A DNA stretch of 6,055 nucleotides. Source: Candidatus Latescibacterota bacterium (GTDB taxonomy: Bacteria; JAAXHH01; JACQVL01). The notes beneath the pieces were generated by a model, which was not told the DNA's origin, did no database searches, and saw only the letters and a list, made by a program, of their open reading frames with translations. Made by a program: the position numbers and the translations under genes. Within the stretch, counting starts at the first letter, position 1; every line of letters begins with the position of its first letter. Where the stretch lies: contig JACQVL010000086.1 in NCBI GenBank assembly GCA_016209865.1, positions 1 to 6,055 of the forward strand, in the 5' to 3' direction. This document shows positions 1 to 6,055 of the stretch, piece by piece.

Positions 1-1057
1 ATTCTGGGCCGTACGGACGGAGGAACGGGATGCCCGGCCGCACCGGGGCGGTCTGGCGAAAGTCAATGCCATCGAGTCGTGCCAGAAGGTCGATCACCTC
101 GCGCCAGATGCCGCGCGTCTTCACTCCGATCCCGGCGTTGTGGCCGTAGATGGCGGGTGGGGGACTCCGATGTTTCGTCGCCTCGCGCACCAGACGGACG
201 GTGCCGCCGGCGAACGTCTCGCTGAACATCACCCCTGTCGCCCCGGCGTCGAGCACCGCGTCTACTGTGTCGAGGATCTCATGAGGCGCGCCGCTGATGT
301 GGGGGGCGAAGATGAGGCCCAGGCCGCCGCGTTCGTCGCGGGCACGCTCGATCGCCGCTATCGCCTGGCGAGTGCGTTCAGCGGCCGGGGAGTAATCGAG
401 GTTCGGGTATAAGTCCTCATCCTCCTTCACGAAGAGGAACAACAGGCACCGGGCCGCGTCCTCCACCAGCCTGCCCACTTCGTCCGGCGTGATCCCGGCG
501 GTCGGCTTCAGGATCGTGCCGAAGGCGGGCTGATCCGGGGCGAAGCCGGTCAGACGCCGCACCCCGCGTGGCCCGTGGGCCGGGCCTGGAAACGTCCGGA
601 TGATGCGTTCCGGGAGTTGCAGGGCGATCAGTCGCGCGTCCTGGTTCTCGTACACATCGAAGATGATCGCTCCGGCGGTCGTATGCAGGATGTCGCACGA
701 CGTGAGGTGCCCGTCCGGCTGGAGCATCATCTTCAGCGGGAAGGCCACGTGGAGCAGCCCGATGCGTTCGGTCGCATCGAACGGGTCGACCCCGGCGGGG
801 ATGGCGGAACATTGGGCGAGCAGCGACCCGGCGGGCGGATGCCGGACTCCGCTCGTCGCGTGGTAACTGATCTCCTCGACCGCGTCCTCCAGCTTCATCG
901 TGCGGAACGCGAAGAAATAGGTTGCTACCACATACTCGTCCATGACCGGCGGGGGAGCGGCGGCGAGCCGCTCGGTCACGACCTCACGCAGCAACACTTC
1001 ACGCGCATCCCAATCGCGCCAGAGGAGGTCCAGGGTTGAGGAGTTGAGGAGAGGCAT
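1..1057 (-). CDS. RuBisCO-like protein (form IV type RuBisCO large-subunit homologue), 3' end off window
   Basis: This frame is open for 352 codons from the ATG at 1057 to the left edge, so the C-terminus is missing (RuBisCO large chains are usually 400-480 residues). What is seen: an N-terminal domain with EYVVATYFF at 41-49; the linker motif RTFPGPAHG at 154-162, like the F-x-GP-x-x-G of RuBisCO; the barrel entry FGTILKPTAG at 179-188; VKEDE at 210-214; and YGHNAG at 304-309. Against plant RuBisCO numbering, K184 matches K175, and K211, D213 and E214 match the carbamylated lysine and metal ligands K201/D203/E204. H306 matches H294. However K177 is T186, R295 is N307, E60 appears to be H66, and the visible loop-6 stretch (331-350) has no lysine for K334. 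It is therefore inferred to be an RLP doing enolase-, isomerase- or decarboxylase-type chemistry, not CO2 fixation. Only weak ribosome-binding sequence precedes the start; M39 (943) is an alternative. Confidence 0.86.
   Translation of the reverse strand, partial: MPLLNSSTLDLLWRDWDAREVLLREVVTERLAAAPPPVMDEYVVATYFFAFRTMKLEDAVEEISYHATSGVRHPPAGSLLAQCSAIPAGVDPFDATERIGLLHVAFPLKMMLQPDGHLTSCDILHTTAGAIIFDVYENQDARLIALQLPERIIRTFPGPAHGPRGVRRLTGFAPDQPAFGTILKPTAGITPDEVGRLVEDAARCLLFLFVKEDEDLYPNLDYSPAAERTRQAIAAIERARDERGGLGLIFAPHISGAPHEILDTVDAVLDAGATGVMFSETFAGGTVRLVREATKHRSPPPAIYGHNAGIGVKTRGIWREVIDLLARLDGIDFRQTAPVRPGIPFLRPYGPE
1035..1050. repeat. Direct octamer repeat, 2 copies
   Basis: GTTGAGGA occurs twice back to back on the plus strand (1035-1042 and 1043-1050). 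It lies inside the first codons of the RuBisCO-like gene as called here (residues 3-8, LNSST region). It resembles the intergenic short tandem arrays elsewhere in the window, so the first dozen codons of that gene may be repeat-derived, or translation may start further in. Confidence 0.6.
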
Positions 1058-1078
1058 AGGAGCGAAGGTTCTTGTGTT

Positions 1079-1155
1079 CACCACAAAGACACAAAGAACA
1101 CAAAGTATGATGTACATTATCCTCTTTACTTTGTGTCCTTCGTGCCTTTGTGGTG
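1079..1155 (-). repeat. Long inverted repeat / hairpin between uxuA-like and RLP genes
   Basis: Arms at 1079-1105 and 1129-1155 (27 bases each) flank a 23-base loop. The arms differ at three positions, and at each the plus strand would carry an A-C mismatch while minus-strand RNA carries a G-U wobble, so minus-strand RNA can pair along all 27 positions. It begins 16 bases after the stop codon of the uxuA-like gene and ends 21 bases before the RLP start. No T-run follows it in the direction of transcription, so it is not a classical intrinsic terminator. It could protect the 3' end of the upstream message, attenuate RLP expression, or be a dispersed repeat family; CACAAAG-type inverted repeats of this kind occur widely in bacterial intergenic DNA. 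Confidence 0.8.
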
Positions 1156-1171
1156 CGATCGTCGTTCTCTC

Positions 1172-2122
1172 TTACCGATACACCGACTGGATCAAGCCAC
1201 GGATGTACCCGTTCGAGTACGCGCGGCCGGCCCAGCCGCCCGACGGGTGCGGGATGCCGGGGGTATGGTCCATCATAAAGGGGCCGTTGAACCCGACCTT
1301 CCGGTAGGTCTTCATCGCCTGGACCATATCGACGTCCCCTTCGTCGAGGAACACCTCCTGGAACTTGTACGAACTCCCACGGATGTTGCGGAAGTGGACG
1401 AATACGATCTTATTCCGCGACCCCATGTAGCGGATCGTCTTCTGGACGTTCGCCCCCATCTCGGCCACGCAGCCCTGGCAGAAGAGCATGCCCATCGCGT
1501 CGCTGTGGGCGATGTCGAAGATCCGCTGATAATTGGGTACACTGACGACGATCCGGGCGGCTCCGCCTAAGGGCTCCGGGATGGGCGGATCGTCGGGGTG
1601 GAGGGCGATCCGCACCCCCGCCTCCTCGGCGACGGGGACGACGCGCTCCAGAAAATAGGTGATATTCTCCCACAGCCGCTCTTCGGTGATCTCCTGGCCG
1701 GGGAATGTCGGCGGACCTTTCAGGAATTCTTCGTAATCGAACGTGCTGTAGGTCGCTCCGCCGCGGCCGTGGGTCGACGGCGTCCGGAAATGGCTGATGG
1801 CATAGAACGTCGTCGCGGTCGCGGGAACCCCGGCGGCTCCGATGGCGCGCAGGACGGTGCACCAGTTCTCGATCTGCTCGTCACGGCCGGGGAGGCCGTA
1901 GACGATCTTGTCGCGCGGGAGGCCGCCCGAATGGAGGACGTAGAGTTCCAGCCCGTGCGCCTCCACGAAGTGCTTCATCTGTTTGAACTCGTCCGCCCGG
2001 TCGCTGCCGTCCGCCATCTCCGGCGGCAGGTGGATGAGCAGACAATCGATCCCGATCGCTTTGTAGAAATTCAGATTCTCATCCGTCACGTCGTTCCAGG
2101 ACAGGTGATCCATGAGTTTCAT
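1172..2122 (-). CDS. Mannonate dehydratase (UxuA)-like sugar-acid dehydratase, TIM-barrel fold
   Basis: The 316-residue product has the pattern of the UxuA family, metal-dependent TIM-barrel enzymes that dehydrate D-mannonate to 2-keto-3-deoxygluconate in hexuronate breakdown. Visible motifs: GRGGATYSTFDYEEF at 119-133; HPDDPPIPEPLGG at 175-187 (substrate-binding barrel strand); FCQGCVAEMG at 214-223; VHFRNIRG at 242-249; EVFLDEGDVDM at 256-266; MMDHTPG at 283-289 and GRAYSNGYIRGLIQ at 299-312. C215 or C218, H243 and D285/H286 correspond to the Cys/His/Asp-His cluster known to hold the metal and catalyse the reaction in characterised mannonate dehydratases. It is clearly shorter than E. coli UxuA (394 residues), so a related sugar acid may be the true substrate. 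AGGAG lies 9 bases before the ATG. No signal peptide; cytoplasmic. A 276-base repeat-rich gap separates it from phyH, so it may have its own promoter. Confidence 0.86.
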   Translation of the reverse strand: MKLMDHLSWNDVTDENLNFYKAIGIDCLLIHLPPEMADGSDRADEFKQMKHFVEAHGLELYVLHSGGLPRDKIVYGLPGRDEQIENWCTVLRAIGAAGVPATATTFYAISHFRTPSTHGRGGATYSTFDYEEFLKGPPTFPGQEITEERLWENITYFLERVVPVAEEAGVRIALHPDDPPIPEPLGGAARIVVSVPNYQRIFDIAHSDAMGMLFCQGCVAEMGANVQKTIRYMGSRNKIVFVHFRNIRGSSYKFQEVFLDEGDVDMVQAMKTYRKVGFNGPFMMDHTPGIPHPSGGWAGRAYSNGYIRGLIQSVYR

Positions 2123-2131
2123 GATGGCACG

Positions 2132-2136
2132 CTCCT
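2132..2136 (-). promoter_or_regulatory. Ribosome binding site of the uxuA-like gene
   Basis: On the minus strand this reads AGGAG, 9 bases before the ATG at 2122. It supports that start over the in-frame ATG three codons further in. Confidence 0.7.
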
Positions 2137-2144
2137 GAGTAAGT

Positions 2145-2177
2145 TCGGTGGTCGGTGGTCAGTGGTCGGTGGTCGGT
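2145..2177. repeat. Heptamer tandem array 1 (TCGGTGG unit)
   Basis: Units of 7 bases at 2145, 2152, 2159 (one change, TCAGTGG), 2166 and a partial copy at 2173. It sits 8 bases beyond the ribosome binding site of the uxuA-like gene, so it would lie in that gene's 5' leader if transcription starts upstream. Confidence 0.85.
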
Positions 2178-2183
2178 AAAACC

Positions 2184-2206
2184 AGTGACGAGTGACAAGT
2201 GACGAG
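2184..2206. repeat. Heptamer tandem array 2 (AGTGACG unit)
   Basis: Three complete 7-base units (2184 AGTGACG, 2191 AGTGACA, 2198 AGTGACG) and a two-base start of a fourth. The unit is unrelated to that of array 1, only 6 bases away, yet the period is the same. Confidence 0.8.
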
Positions 2207-2216
2207 AAAGACCTGT

Positions 2217-2243
2217 TGTCATTCCCGCGAAAGCGGGAATCCA
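2217..2243 (+). repeat. Palindromic dispersed repeat, copy A (ATTCCC-N8-GGGAAT type)
   Basis: A 27-base unit whose core at 2221-2240 is an 8-base perfect stem (ATTCCCGC / GCGGGAAT) around GAAA. The core fits the ATTCCC-N8-GGGAAT consensus known as dRS3 in Neisseria and seen as a dispersed repeat in many bacteria. It matches copy B at 3208-3234, in inverted orientation, at 26 of 27 positions. Confidence 0.85.
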
Positions 2244-2245
2244 GT

Positions 2246-2308
2246 TCACTCCATGATTCCCTTCATCTCCCAAATGTCGATCGATGTCACGGTCGCGCGG
2301 TCTGACAT
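2246..2308 (-). pseudogene. Possible 20-codon peptide or N-terminal gene remnant
   Basis: The frame encodes MSDRATVTSIDIWEMKGIME and ends in TGA two bases before dispersed repeat copy A. GGGAG lies 7 bases before the ATG, a normal ribosome binding geometry. The composition (acidic, with Trp, Ile and Met) looks like the first residues of a real protein rather than translated repeat. It may be the broken start of a gene whose remainder was lost when the repeat arrived, a small leader peptide for the uxuA-like gene, or chance. No family is recognised. Confidence 0.35.
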
Positions 2309-2315
2309 GAATCAT

Positions 2316-2320
2316 CTCCC
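2316..2320 (-). promoter_or_regulatory. Ribosome binding site of the 20-codon frame
   Basis: On the minus strand this reads GGGAG, 7 bases before the ATG at 2308. It is the main reason for listing that short frame. Confidence 0.35.
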
Positions 2321-2323
2321 GAT

Positions 2324-2343
2324 GGGCGCAGCTCGCTGCACCC
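2324..2343 (-). terminator. Compact GC-rich hairpin after phyH
   Basis: As minus-strand RNA, GGGUGCAG and CUGCGCCC form an 8-pair stem with one U-G wobble around a CGAG loop; on the plus strand the same position is a C-A mismatch. It lies 55 bases after the phyH stop codon and just before the ribosome binding site of the 20-codon frame. No T-run follows, so termination is only one reading; a leader structure is another. Confidence 0.4.
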
Positions 2344-2361
2344 CTACTCTCTTTTCTGTTT

Positions 2362-2396
2362 CCCGAACCCCGAATCCCTAATCCCGAACCCCGAGC
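2362..2396. repeat. Heptamer tandem array 3 (CCCGAAC/T unit)
   Basis: Five consecutive 7-base units: CCCGAAC, CCCGAAT, CCCTAAT, CCCGAAC, CCCGAGC, starting at 2362, 2369, 2376, 2383 and 2390. It begins two bases beyond the phyH stop codon, so it is the start of the phyH 3' untranslated region. Confidence 0.85.
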
Positions 2397-2398
2397 GC

Positions 2399-3187
2399 TC
2401 ACCGGACACAGCCCGGATACGTCTTCCCCTTCACATGGAAATAGACCGGGCTCTCCCCTTCTCCGGTATGCCGGGACTTCGACGACATGTACGACAGGGC
2501 GATCGCGCGCCGCCACGTGTTCGAGCGGTTGGGCGCGGTATAATGAGGGAGCAGGGAATGGAAGAACAGCCCGCCGCCCGCCCGCAGCGGACACAAGACC
2601 ATTTCGCTACTGTCATAGTACCGTTCGTCGACGACGTAATCGTCCGTGACGTGCACATGGGGCAGTGGGCCTTTCTTGTGCCAGCCCGGCAGGGCGGCCA
2701 TACAGCCGTTCTCGACCGTCGCGTCATCGAGGGTAAACCAGCAGGAGCAGAGGTCCATCGGTTCGATCGGCCAGTAGGGCGAGTCCTGATGCATGCCCTT
2801 GGCGGAGCCGACCTGCGGGGGTTTGAGGAGCATCGCGTTCCGGAACATCTTGATGTCTGGCCCCACGATCTGCTCGATGATGCCGACGATGTTCTCGTTC
2901 AGCCCCAGTTGACAGAACAGATCGTCCCCTTCCACCAGTCCCGTCAGTTTGCGGATACCGTCCCCCGGATGTGCGACGGTCATTTCCCCGCGCTGGACGC
3001 GTGGCTCGACCTGGACATGGATCGACCCCGCCGGCCGGCCGCCGTGCGTGTACTCCTTGACCCGGTTGCGGAGGGCGTCCAGTTCCTCCGGTGAGACGAG
3101 GTCTTCCACGACGAGGAACCCGTCGCGGTGGTACGCCGCAAGCTGTTCGTCGGTGAGTCGAATGGGTGTCTGCGTCGATATGCTCAT
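2399..3187 (-). CDS. Phytanoyl-CoA dioxygenase (PhyH) family Fe(II)/2-oxoglutarate oxygenase
   Basis: A 262-residue double-stranded beta-helix oxygenase of the PhyH type, which hydroxylates a substrate using Fe(II), O2 and 2-oxoglutarate. Visible family features: LTDEQLAAYHRDGFLVVEDLVSPEE at the N-terminus; KGMHQDSPYW at 130-139, giving the iron ligands H133 and D135; LDDATVENGCMAALPGWHKKG at 153-173; FFHSLLPHYTAPNRS at 208-222, where H215 is the likely distal iron ligand; and WRRAIALSYM at 225-234, whose Arg would hold 2-oxoglutarate. The facial triad is therefore complete. The start at 3187 is chosen because GGAGGT lies 5 bases upstream; a further in-frame ATG at 3244 would read through a dispersed repeat. 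It follows the 582-residue gene by 53 bases on the same strand and is probably co-transcribed. Members act on very diverse small molecules, so the substrate is unknown. Confidence 0.92.
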   Translation of the reverse strand: MSISTQTPIRLTDEQLAAYHRDGFLVVEDLVSPEELDALRNRVKEYTHGGRPAGSIHVQVEPRVQRGEMTVAHPGDGIRKLTGLVEGDDLFCQLGLNENIVGIIEQIVGPDIKMFRNAMLLKPPQVGSAKGMHQDSPYWPIEPMDLCSCWFTLDDATVENGCMAALPGWHKKGPLPHVHVTDDYVVDERYYDSSEMVLCPLRAGGGLFFHSLLPHYTAPNRSNTWRRAIALSYMSSKSRHTGEGESPVYFHVKGKTYPGCVR

Positions 3188-3192
3188 GCAAG

Positions 3193-3198
3193 ACCTCC
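3193..3198 (-). promoter_or_regulatory. Strong ribosome binding site of phyH
   Basis: On the minus strand this reads GGAGGT, 5 bases before the ATG at 3187. It decides the start against the ATG at 3244. Confidence 0.85.
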
Positions 3199-3207
3199 GT
3201 GTGGATA

Positions 3208-3234
3208 TGGATTCCCGCTCTCGCGGGAATGACA
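3208..3234 (-). repeat. Palindromic dispersed repeat, copy B (ATTCCC-N8-GGGAAT type)
   Basis: Inverted copy of the repeat at 2217-2243, with one change in 27 bases. In minus-strand RNA the core (3211-3230) is an 8-pair stem closed by GAGA, where copy A has GAAA on the other strand; both fit the GNRA tetraloop pattern. It fills most of the 53-base gap between the 582-residue gene and phyH, ending 9 bases before the phyH ribosome binding site. Confidence 0.85.
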
Positions 3235-3240
3235 GTCTGA

Positions 3241-4989
3241 TCAACGATCAACAGGAAACACCGTTACCTGTATTTCAACGTCCGGTTTCAAATCGAATAC
3301 CAGCACCAGATGGACTTCTCCCTCCGTGTTCCTTGCGATGACGCACTCTTTGGCGTCGGTGTCCACCCGGCAGGGGGAGGCCGCGGGCACCCCCCACAGG
3401 GCGATCGCGTAGTCCTGAAATTCAGCGCTGGTCTTCATCGTCAGTGAGATCGTCCAGCCGTCCCCCTCCTGACGCCACGGAGAACGGATGACCTCGACAT
3501 CGGGGGTGTCGACGTGCGTGATCGCGCTGCCCTCCGGCCCTCGTTCCTGCGTCGTGTAATCGAACCACCAGATGGGATTGGGACTCTCCCGCTCGAACCG
3601 GATCGACCGCTTCTGGTCCTCGATGAGGATGTATTCATACGACAGCGGGTCTTTGAACGGGTGCATCGTCTTCCGGAGCTGCAGGATCGTGGAGACCCGC
3701 GTCCACCACGGAAGCCGCTCACGGGTTAGCAGATTCCGGCGGTTGTACCAGTCGCACAGCCACCACATGTCGTACAGGATGTGATCCGTCTTGCTGACGA
3801 ACACCGTGCGGGGCGTGACGGTGAAGTGCCGGCGGTAGTAGTCGGCGATGTCGATCGTCCGGGCGTACGCGAGGGAGTACGACTGCGTGAACTCGAACGC
3901 CATCAGCCGTTGATACCGGTCGACGAACTCGAACATCCGCGCTCGATCCTGAAACCGTTCATCGAATTGCCCGTTGGCAAACCCGTTGCGGGCGGTCACC
4001 CCGTCGTACAGCGGGGTCATGAAGGCCGGATGCCCGCTGAGTTCGGCTAAGTTCTTCGCCTCGGTCATGCCCTGGCGCAGACAATGCGCGGTCGATTCCC
4101 ACTGTCGCTCCGACGCCCCGTAGTGCCAGCTCACCGGGCCGAGGAAATGCCAGCCGCCACAGAAATCCCATTGGTGCGCGACGACGTTCCCCCCCTGTCC
4201 CTGATTCGCCTTCCGGCAATCGACGGGCGAGGAGAAATACGGAAACTCCGGCATCCCCAGCCACGGTTTCGCGTTCGCCTCCCACATCCCGCAGTGATCG
4301 TTGACGCCGAGTCGCATCAACGTCTCGGTGTAGCCAGTATCCAGGTCATGGTGCATCTCCACGCGGGCGGAGCGCGCGTCGTTGGCGTCGGGCAGGAGGC
4401 GTCGCGCCGTGTCCAGGCCCTGGCCGTAGACCTGAGCCCGTTCCTCCACACTCAACGCGGGGGTATCCGGGAACGCCGGGACGATCGTGTCGCCGTAGTG
4501 CCTATGGTAGCTGAGCAACTTCTGGAACAGCGGGTCATTCAGGTCAAATTGTTCGACGGGCAGCCGGTAGTCGAGGGGAATCCCGGTGGCGTGCAGGGTG
4601 GGTTCCGATTCCAGGTCGATGAACGGGCTGAAACTCAGGACGACCCAGTCGTCCTCGATCACCGAGAAGAACCGGTAGAACACCTCATCCCCCGCGTGCC
4701 ATCGCGCCAAGTAGTTGCCCGGCTGCTGGGGATGGTAGGTCAGCGTCGCACGTCCGCCGGAAAACGGCAGGGGGAGCCGTTCAGACGGCAGTGCATCGAC
4801 CCACGCCAGATCACCGCCAGCGATGAAGGCGTCGCCGGGATCAGCGCGTTCGAGGTACCGGGGGAAGATCGTGACCTCGCCGGCGGCCAGGCCGTCGGGC
4901 AGGTAAAAATCGAACGTGATCGTCTCCCCGACCCGGAGCAGCCGGCTGGTCGTCGTCCACTGCGGCATCGTCAACAGATGATCGTGCAT
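3241..4989 (-). CDS. Unrecognised 582-residue protein with beta-rich ends and an aromatic, His/Asp-rich middle
   Basis: No family was recognised. Three regions can be described. Residues about 10-115 look like a beta-sandwich (alternating strands such as GETITFDFYL, GRATLTYHP, NYLARWHAG, VFYRFFSV). Residues about 140-445 form a mixed alpha/beta middle with many aromatic and His/Asp/Cys clusters: HHDLDTGY at 213-220, NDHCGMW at 230-236, AHQWDFCGGWHF at 271-282, WHYGASERQW at 288-297 and KTDHILYDMWWLCDWYN at 400-416. Residues about 450-580 return to beta strands ending in VEIQVTVFPVDR. This layout is common in glycoside hydrolases and related carbohydrate enzymes, but that is inference only. 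There is no signal peptide or membrane segment, so it is probably cytoplasmic. Its ATG lies 7 bases after the stop of the Gfo/Idh/MocA gene, and the nearest GAGG (5002-5005) is 12 bases upstream, so translational coupling is likely. ATG codon 8 is an alternative start without a better binding site. Confidence 0.87.
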   Translation of the reverse strand: MHDHLLTMPQWTTTSRLLRVGETITFDFYLPDGLAAGEVTIFPRYLERADPGDAFIAGGDLAWVDALPSERLPLPFSGGRATLTYHPQQPGNYLARWHAGDEVFYRFFSVIEDDWVVLSFSPFIDLESEPTLHATGIPLDYRLPVEQFDLNDPLFQKLLSYHRHYGDTIVPAFPDTPALSVEERAQVYGQGLDTARRLLPDANDARSARVEMHHDLDTGYTETLMRLGVNDHCGMWEANAKPWLGMPEFPYFSSPVDCRKANQGQGGNVVAHQWDFCGGWHFLGPVSWHYGASERQWESTAHCLRQGMTEAKNLAELSGHPAFMTPLYDGVTARNGFANGQFDERFQDRARMFEFVDRYQRLMAFEFTQSYSLAYARTIDIADYYRRHFTVTPRTVFVSKTDHILYDMWWLCDWYNRRNLLTRERLPWWTRVSTILQLRKTMHPFKDPLSYEYILIEDQKRSIRFERESPNPIWWFDYTTQERGPEGSAITHVDTPDVEVIRSPWRQEGDGWTISLTMKTSAEFQDYAIALWGVPAASPCRVDTDAKECVIARNTEGEVHLVLVFDLKPDVEIQVTVFPVDR

Positions 4990-4996
4990 GCTCGAT

Positions 4997-6055
4997 TCAC
5001 GCCTCGTTCATCTTACCCCACCGCTCTAACGGATGCCGGCGGTCGGCGAGGGGAAGTGCCACCCGGCGTCCCTGCTCCTTGTGTGATTGGTAGATCGCCA
5101 TGATCATCTCGAACGCCCAGCGGCCTTCCTCGCCGCTGCCGGGAGGCTGCGAGTCCGTCTCGATCGCCTCGGCTAACCGGCGGTACATGGTGACCACCGG
5201 GTCCTCGACCCCGACATCGGTGAAGTCAACCGGCTTCCAGTCCGAGAGCTGGGCGGGCGTCCCTTCCATCGGGCGCGGGAGATGCCACAGGCTGTCCTGC
5301 ACATGGCCGGAGCACCGGACCGCTAACTGCCCCTCTGCTCCTAAAATATCGACCCCGTAATTCTGACCCATCCCCTTCTGATAGCCCAGGAAGTGGATTT
5401 CACCTAAGAGACCTCCCTTGAAACCATAGTAGCCGATAGCCTGCGATCCCATCACGAGGCCTGAATCCCGATCTCGAGGAGACATCTCTTTGGCTTCCAT
5501 AATGTCCTGAGGCCCGGCGAACCGCCCCTGATAATAGACCGTGCCGGCCCCCCATTCCGGAATGCCTCCGAAGCAGAGCATCATATCCGTCACGTGGGTG
5601 CCCATCTCCATGAACTCATTCCCGCTGTGCCGGCCAGCCTTGTTCCGTCCCCGGATCAGGACGACCTCCCCGATCACCCCGTCGTTGACGATCATTTGCG
5701 CTTTACGGATACCCGGATGGACGTGATTCTGTTGATTGATCGCCAGCTTAGCGCCGGACGCGGCAGCGGCGGCCACCATCTCATCCGCCTCGACGAGGTC
5801 GATCGCCATCGGTTTTTCGCACAGGACGGAGACTCCGCGCCGGAGGGCGGCGACGGTCGGGGCATGGTGGCCGCGTGTCTGCGTGGCCACTGTCACGATG
5901 TCCAGGTCGATCTCCTCATACATCTTCTCAAAATCACGGTACCGCGCGGTGATTCCGTATTCCTCTCCTGCTCGATTCAGCGCCTCCGAAGCGATATCAC
6001 AGAGCGCGACGATGTCAAACCCGGAGAGTTGCCGGATCGTGTTCAGATGATGGCG
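4997..6055 (-). CDS. Gfo/Idh/MocA family NAD(P)-dependent oxidoreductase, 5' end off window
   Basis: The frame is open from the right edge to the TGA at 4997-4999, giving 352 visible residues. The first visible ones, RHHLNTIRQLSGFDIVALCD, correspond to the helix and second strand of the Rossmann fold, so only the start codon and the glycine-rich GxGxxG turn are missing; the in-frame ATG at 5923 is internal. The family signature CEKPMA is at 79-84 of the visible part (K81 is the usual catalytic or cofactor lysine), followed by the alpha/beta dimerisation domain with NQQNHVHPGIRKAQ at 108-121, EMGTHVTDMMLCFGG at 150-164 and the C-terminal WAFEMIMAIYQSHKEQGRRVALPL. These enzymes oxidise or reduce sugars, inositols and related polyols; H154 in the GTHVTD stretch fits the active-site region. 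The next gene starts 7 bases later, so the two are surely one transcript. The substrate is not readable from sequence. Confidence 0.94.
   Translation of the reverse strand, partial: RHHLNTIRQLSGFDIVALCDIASEALNRAGEEYGITARYRDFEKMYEEIDLDIVTVATQTRGHHAPTVAALRRGVSVLCEKPMAIDLVEADEMVAAAAASGAKLAINQQNHVHPGIRKAQMIVNDGVIGEVVLIRGRNKAGRHSGNEFMEMGTHVTDMMLCFGGIPEWGAGTVYYQGRFAGPQDIMEAKEMSPRDRDSGLVMGSQAIGYYGFKGGLLGEIHFLGYQKGMGQNYGVDILGAEGQLAVRCSGHVQDSLWHLPRPMEGTPAQLSDWKPVDFTDVGVEDPVVTMYRRLAEAIETDSQPPGSGEEGRWAFEMIMAIYQSHKEQGRRVALPLADRRHPLERWGKMNEA

Follow-up and report, generated by a model that had tools for sequence, protein, structure and literature searches.

A RuBisCO-like protein with an eroded phosphate site, apparently from an undescribed subfamily and tentatively linked to sugar-acid degradation

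Introduction

What reaction is left to a protein that has kept the metal site of RuBisCO and lost residues that handle phosphate and CO2? The question is raised by a gene that runs off the end of a contig from a Candidatus Latescibacterota bacterium (assembly GCA_016209865.1, contig JACQVL010000086.1), of which positions 1 to 6,055 of the forward strand, here called the window, were analysed. The original prediction was a RuBisCO-like protein (RLP) with an altered substrate site, of form IV type and perhaps of a less-studied class. The known reactions of RLPs are few (PMC10176493). Each has revealed something of the chemistry open to an adapted RuBisCO active site, and in the present case the eroded phosphate site, the wide, patchy spread and the defined partner enzymes make the reaction directly testable. 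Naming the family would also label proteins that are caught by generic RuBisCO profiles and can distort tallies of CO2 fixers.

A RuBisCO-like gene truncated by the contig end

The RLP gene occupies positions 2 to 1057 on the minus strand, its start codon being the ATG at 1057; the frame stays open down to base 2, and there the end of the contig truncates it after 352 of about 475 residues. Pfam RuBisCO_large (PF00016) matches this N-terminal part with an E-value of 4.5e-11 (43 bits against a cut-off of 30.1); the match is to the general RuBisCO domain only, and no NCBIfam model scores above its cut-off. An AlphaFold2 model of a relative, L004, built on 44 family sequences (mean pLDDT 89, pTM 0.90), aligns with MtnW, RLP and RuBisCO chains at Z 32 to 36.5 over about 390 residues, with its first 35 residues outside the aligned part. 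The significant profile match, together with the whole RuBisCO fold predicted for this relative, indicates that the window protein is a member of the RuBisCO superfamily. Its dN/dS of about 0.07 to 0.09 against three relatives, at dS near saturation, points to a gene under purifying selection and not to a relic. The genome assembly comprises 3.75 Mb in 356 contigs and is 83% complete, and the contig that carries the gene starts at window base 1. Recovery of the missing C-terminus, which had been proposed as a check, succeeded in part: it is known from more than 40 relatives, and none was found elsewhere in this 83% complete assembly.

Scanning one genome per GTDB species, we found 48 loci related to the window RLP, mostly 68-81% identical to it over all 352 residues. 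Their record names span Planctomycetota, Verrucomicrobia, Chloroflexi, Acidobacteria, Armatimonadetes, Poribacteria, Hydrogenedentota, Latescibacterota, Omnitrophota and Handelsmanbacteria, a count of phyla (about ten) that is approximate because the record titles of metagenome-assembled genomes may be wrong. The protein from an Armatimonadetes record (L047) is 49% identical to that of the window. One locus, L021, comes from a named strain, Tautonia sociabilis GM2012. Among the 16 genomes scanned in the window's own phylum, a RuBisCO-family match was obtained in the window's genome and in none of the others. Given such high identity across phyla and such patchy presence, we infer that the family has been shared among these phyla by horizontal transfer. 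An RLP from another genome (G029), considered as a member, was rejected at 32% identity; it belongs to another group and scores best with the models for OiaX and form III. A literature search with partial access returned no paper describing this family or its function; other publications may do so.

The enolisation core is invariant and the carboxylase residues are substituted

In RuBisCO, defined positions hold the two phosphates of RuBP, a lysine sits in loop 6, and a separate set of residues forms the enolisation core, in which K201 is the carbamate lysine and D203 and E204 are Mg ligands. We aligned 44 family proteins and counted residues by RuBisCO numbering. K175, K201, D203, E204 and H294 are invariant (44/44). 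In the window protein the metal site is K211-E-D213-E214 (positions 416 to 427, minus strand), with K211 the expected carbamylation lysine; K175 corresponds to K184 in the motif K184-P-T186 (500 to 508, minus), and H294 to H306 in H306-N307 (137 to 142, minus). The same motifs contain two of the substitutions, Thr for K177 (43/44) and Asn for R295 (44/44). The loop 6 region (32 to 55, minus) has Q335 at the H327 position (Gln in 44/44) and G342 at that of K334 (Gly in 42/44). H66 (860 to 862, minus) stands at the E60 position, which is His in 39 of the proteins and Leu in five, and A130 (668 to 670, minus) replaces N123, as in 43 of the 44. All of these assignments that had been made from the single frame, namely the five retained residues, T186, N307, H66 and a loop 6 without the K334 lysine, were checked by codon and by alignment and proved correct.

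Since the window protein is cut, the remaining states come from relatives: S379 is Ala and G404 is Ser throughout (44/44 each), and G381 is variable. The C-terminal half thus does not restore a full catalytic set, and the complete carboxylase set of forms I to III (K177, R295, H327, K334, S379, G404) is substituted at all six positions in all or nearly all of the 44 proteins. The P1 site (T65, K334, G381, G404) and the P2 site (R295, H327, S379) are altered or not fixed. The invariant residues are those of the enolisation core, which is accordingly retained, and most residues for the RuBP phosphates are gone along with the loop-6 lysine. Comparison of residues thus shows changes at both phosphate sites and in CO2 handling around a retained core, and extends the predicted loss of these residues beside a retained metal site to the whole family. 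Judged by these residues, the window protein cannot be a RuBisCO, having lost the equipment for CO2 fixation. At the position of W66 each of the 44 proteins has Lys, Arg or His, a change that could provide a new anion contact and leaves room for a phosphorylated substrate.

Phylogenetic placement and comparison with characterised families

We built trees with references from 384 genomes and from plasmid records, labelled by NCBIfam scores, solved structures and deposited annotation; form II, IV-GOS and IV-AMC lay outside the sampling. The RLP family forms its own clade (support 100/100), the stem of which measures 1.28 changes per column. Nearest to it are the uncharacterised RLPs L106, L114 and L120 and the long-branched L125, a union supported at 100/99. 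AU tests reject a union with the OiaX/NonPhoto clade (p 2.3e-6), the MtnW (IV-YkrW) clade (p 1e-5), the IV-Photo clade of the 1tel-like L112 and L113 (p 6e-4) and the IV-DeepYkr-like clade of 3qfw relatives (p 1e-3), the last label relying on a match to 3qfw and on what we take to be the identity of that structure. Among the clades sampled, no characterised one contains the family.

A true RuBisCO is ruled out by scores, residues and trees. The form III structures 8dht, 1geh and 2cwx have the fold in common with the family, but their phosphate and CO2 residues are absent from it, and TIGR03326 (form III) gives the window protein 70.7 bits against a cut-off of 497. MtnW, the 2,3-diketo-5-methylthiopentyl-1-phosphate enolase of the IV-YkrW branch, is the best structural match (4nas, Z 36.5) and has the enolisation core in common. 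It differs in having Leu at H327 and Pro at R295, and PRK09549 and TIGR03332 score 47 and 22 bits on the window protein against cut-offs of 409 and 514; residues, scores and tree thus rule out MtnW. The IV-Photo RLPs (1tel/1ykw, 2qyg) likewise lack the RuBisCO residues R295, H327 and G404, but their replacements differ.

OiaX, the 3-oxo-isoapionate-4-phosphate decarboxylase of the IV-NonPhoto branch, has the RuBisCO fold and metal site in common with the family, and resembles it further in the change of H327 to Gln, in small residues at N123 and S379 and in a kinase-bearing context of sugar-acid catabolism. It is only about 27% identical, retains R295, K334 and the P1 glycines, which the family does not, and is partnered by a kinase of the four-carbon-acid-sugar type. 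Its model NF042437 gives 67 bits with the truncated window protein and 65 bits with the full-length L005 against a cut-off of 700, so that scores, residues and tree exclude OiaX itself. Gln at H327, combined with a small residue at each of N123 and S379, is common to OiaX and the family and is absent from the sampled MtnW, DeepYkr-like, IV-Photo and other NonPhoto proteins. The pattern also occurs in the sister clade without assigned function, and may therefore reflect ancestry instead of chemistry: L106, L114, L120 and L125 carry the family's Gln (H327) and Ala (S379), but long branches separate them from it.

The RLP genes of L120 and L125 adjoin GatZ/KbaZ-like genes and not the operon described below, and that of L106 adjoins a transketolase gene (loci L133, L134, L135, L136). 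RLP genes on plasmids of Vibrio nigripulchritudo (L083, 2144-3289) and NT-25 (L085, 2180-3298) adjoin split transketolase genes; in the former an FGGY kinase gene is also adjacent, and in the latter the RLP is annotated as a transcriptional regulator.

The family belongs to the broad form IV grade, as a RuBisCO homologue that retains the metal site and has its carboxylase residues substituted; form IV is a grade and not a single clade. It is in this broad sense an already known kind, presumably working on the RLP chemical principle. It sits outside each of the named RLP families open to testing here and is apparently an undescribed subfamily, in agreement with the less-studied class foreseen. 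The ocean (GOS) data hold RuBisCO-homologue branches apart from the known forms (PMC1821046), and were the family to fall inside IV-GOS or IV-AMC, neither of which was sampled, its clade would not be new. We consider this improbable: record titles suggest hosts mainly of soil, groundwater, sediment and freshwater and not of surface ocean or acid mine drainage, although titles are a weak guide.

A gene module accompanies the RLP

In relatives the RLP gene heads an operon whose order, seen in several phyla, is RLP, Gfo/Idh/MocA dehydrogenase, xylose-isomerase-like protein, alpha/beta hydrolase, a ribulose-phosphate-3-epimerase paralogue (RPE), PfkB kinase and a uronate-isomerase-like (UxaC-like) protein. 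The Gfo/Idh gene follows closely behind the RLP in 29 loci and in L132. Four loci (L017, L020, L047, L048) have no Gfo/Idh gene close by and carry a mannitol-dehydrogenase-family gene near the RLP instead, whose product may perhaps replace Gfo/Idh as redox partner. The operon RPE retains the residues that align with the metal ligands and the DGG of the housekeeping RPE, so that chemistry on a phosphorylated ketose probably takes place downstream.

The operon-type RPE, separated from housekeeping RPEs by a clear gap (66-100% identity versus 39% or less), was found in 29 of the 41 RLP-positive genomes tested, or 30/42 with the window's own, and in none of 38 negatives, and in several genomes it lies away from the RLP. 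The UxaC-like protein (55% identity or more) was found in 34 of 42 positives and, again, in 0/38 negatives. The Fisher p-values of 2e-12 (RPE) and 3e-15 (UxaC-like) call for caution, as the genomes are related, the negatives are unmatched to the positives by phylum and the queries were taken from an RLP operon. Twelve of the 42 positives have no operon RPE, and L014, L015 and L031 have neither of the two partners searched. In the window's genome, a second contig (C65, locus L142) carries at 9759-12410 the hydrolase (63%), RPE (82%) and PfkB (61%) in a row, with genes for a zinc-dependent alcohol dehydrogenase and an M81/MlrC-type protein upstream. This 83% complete assembly yielded no UxaC-like gene and no close Gfo/Idh orthologue; one query detected 64 distant Gfo/Idh/MocA paralogues in it. 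We regard the separate clade and the gene module as well supported.

Proposed reaction and its alternatives

Loss of the CO2-fixing residues, in the company of sugar-breakdown genes, suggests that the RLP probably performs an as yet unknown step in the degradation of an acidic sugar. Fold, residues, operon and co-occurrence come from comparison, and it is from these that we deduce a substrate, a reaction and an order of steps. The alpha/beta hydrolase would free a C6 sugar acid from a lactone or ester, which the Gfo/Idh/MocA dehydrogenase, or perhaps the mannitol-dehydrogenase-family enzyme, would convert to a 3-oxo acid. The RLP would hold this acid on Mg2+ through its C3 keto group and C2 hydroxyl and release CO2, and the resulting enediolate would be reprotonated by K175 or H294. 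PfkB would then phosphorylate the pentulose, from which the epimerase would make a pentose-phosphate intermediate. Oxidation of a hexonate at C3 followed by decarboxylation gives a pentulose, matching the downstream kinase and 3-epimerase, and the parts of the module suffice for lactone or ester opening, sugar-acid oxidation, removal of one carbon and delivery of a ketose phosphate. Decarboxylation of a beta-keto acid has a precedent within the superfamily in D-apiose catabolism (Carter et al. 2018, cited in PMC6302742 and PMC10176493), and it is the analogy with OiaX that makes the RLP a candidate decarboxylase. We put the probability that it is an Mg-dependent beta-keto sugar-acid decarboxylase, its pentulose product passing to the kinase and epimerase, at about 40%; confidence in the reaction assignment is moderate at best.

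With both phosphate sites lost, there is a weak case for an RLP that precedes the kinase and takes an unphosphorylated substrate. Characterised RLPs use RuBP-related substrates (PMC10176493), among which such a substrate would be exceptional, and we find it doubtful that the RLP is a decarboxylase for an unphosphorylated 3-oxo sugar acid within an undescribed hexonate or uronate pathway of about ten phyla, probably spread by horizontal transfer. The RLP might conversely be a decarboxylase, or a transcarboxylase/hydrolase, that takes a phosphorylated 3-oxo acid as its substrate in a D-apiose-like scheme with PfkB upstream, the phosphate being gripped by new residues such as the Lys or Arg at W66. 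The module does contain a kinase and a phosphate-type epimerase, the W66 position is basic in every protein, and the apiose pathway, too, uses a phosphorylated substrate (PMC10176493, PMC6302742); nevertheless, the state of P1 and P2 makes this rather unlikely. The main rival to the decarboxylase is an isomerase or tautomerase, in which the Mg/carbamate site and K175 or H294 would serve only to shift a proton (1,2 or 1,3) within a ketouronate or ketose with no loss of CO2, much as they do in MtnW and the RLP of R. rubrum on the substrates of those enzymes. In its favour, the residues kept are precisely those of the enolisation core, MtnW is the closest structural match (though many RuBisCOs lie within a few Z units) and the uronate-isomerase-like partner is common. 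However, the operon already carries two to three isomerase or epimerase genes and the H327/S379/N123 pattern is unlike that of MtnW and DeepYkr-like proteins, so that we hold this reading, too, to be unlikely. An oxygenase, in which the enediolate would react with O2, has a reported precedent in an RLP from the D-hamamelose pathway (Kim et al. 2018, cited in PMC10176493) and would be served by the retained enediolate core, but the absence of K334 and K177 and an operon without pointers to an oxygenase pathway make it very improbable.

Other features of the window

Upstream of the RLP, positions 1172 to 2122 on the minus strand encode a UxuA / xylose-isomerase-like TIM-barrel protein (Pfam UxuA, 1.8e-51, and AP_endonuc_2), which possibly belongs to the RLP's sugar-acid pathway. 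Positions 2399-6055 hold genes for a PhyH-type oxygenase, a 582-residue protein and a Gfo/Idh/MocA protein, which share one strand with the RLP and the UxuA-like gene and form a run with them; for the 582-residue protein (3241-4989) neither Pfam nor NCBIfam offers a family. Directly upstream of the RLP start, at 1073-1157, there is an imperfect inverted repeat (CACCACAAAGACACAAAGAACACAAAG ... ACTTTGTGTCCTTCGTGCCTTTGTGGTG) that resembles a dispersed repeat element. Two intergenic REP-like palindromes of the ATTCCCGC..GCGGGAAT type are found at 2219-2245 and 3207-3233, in opposite orientation.
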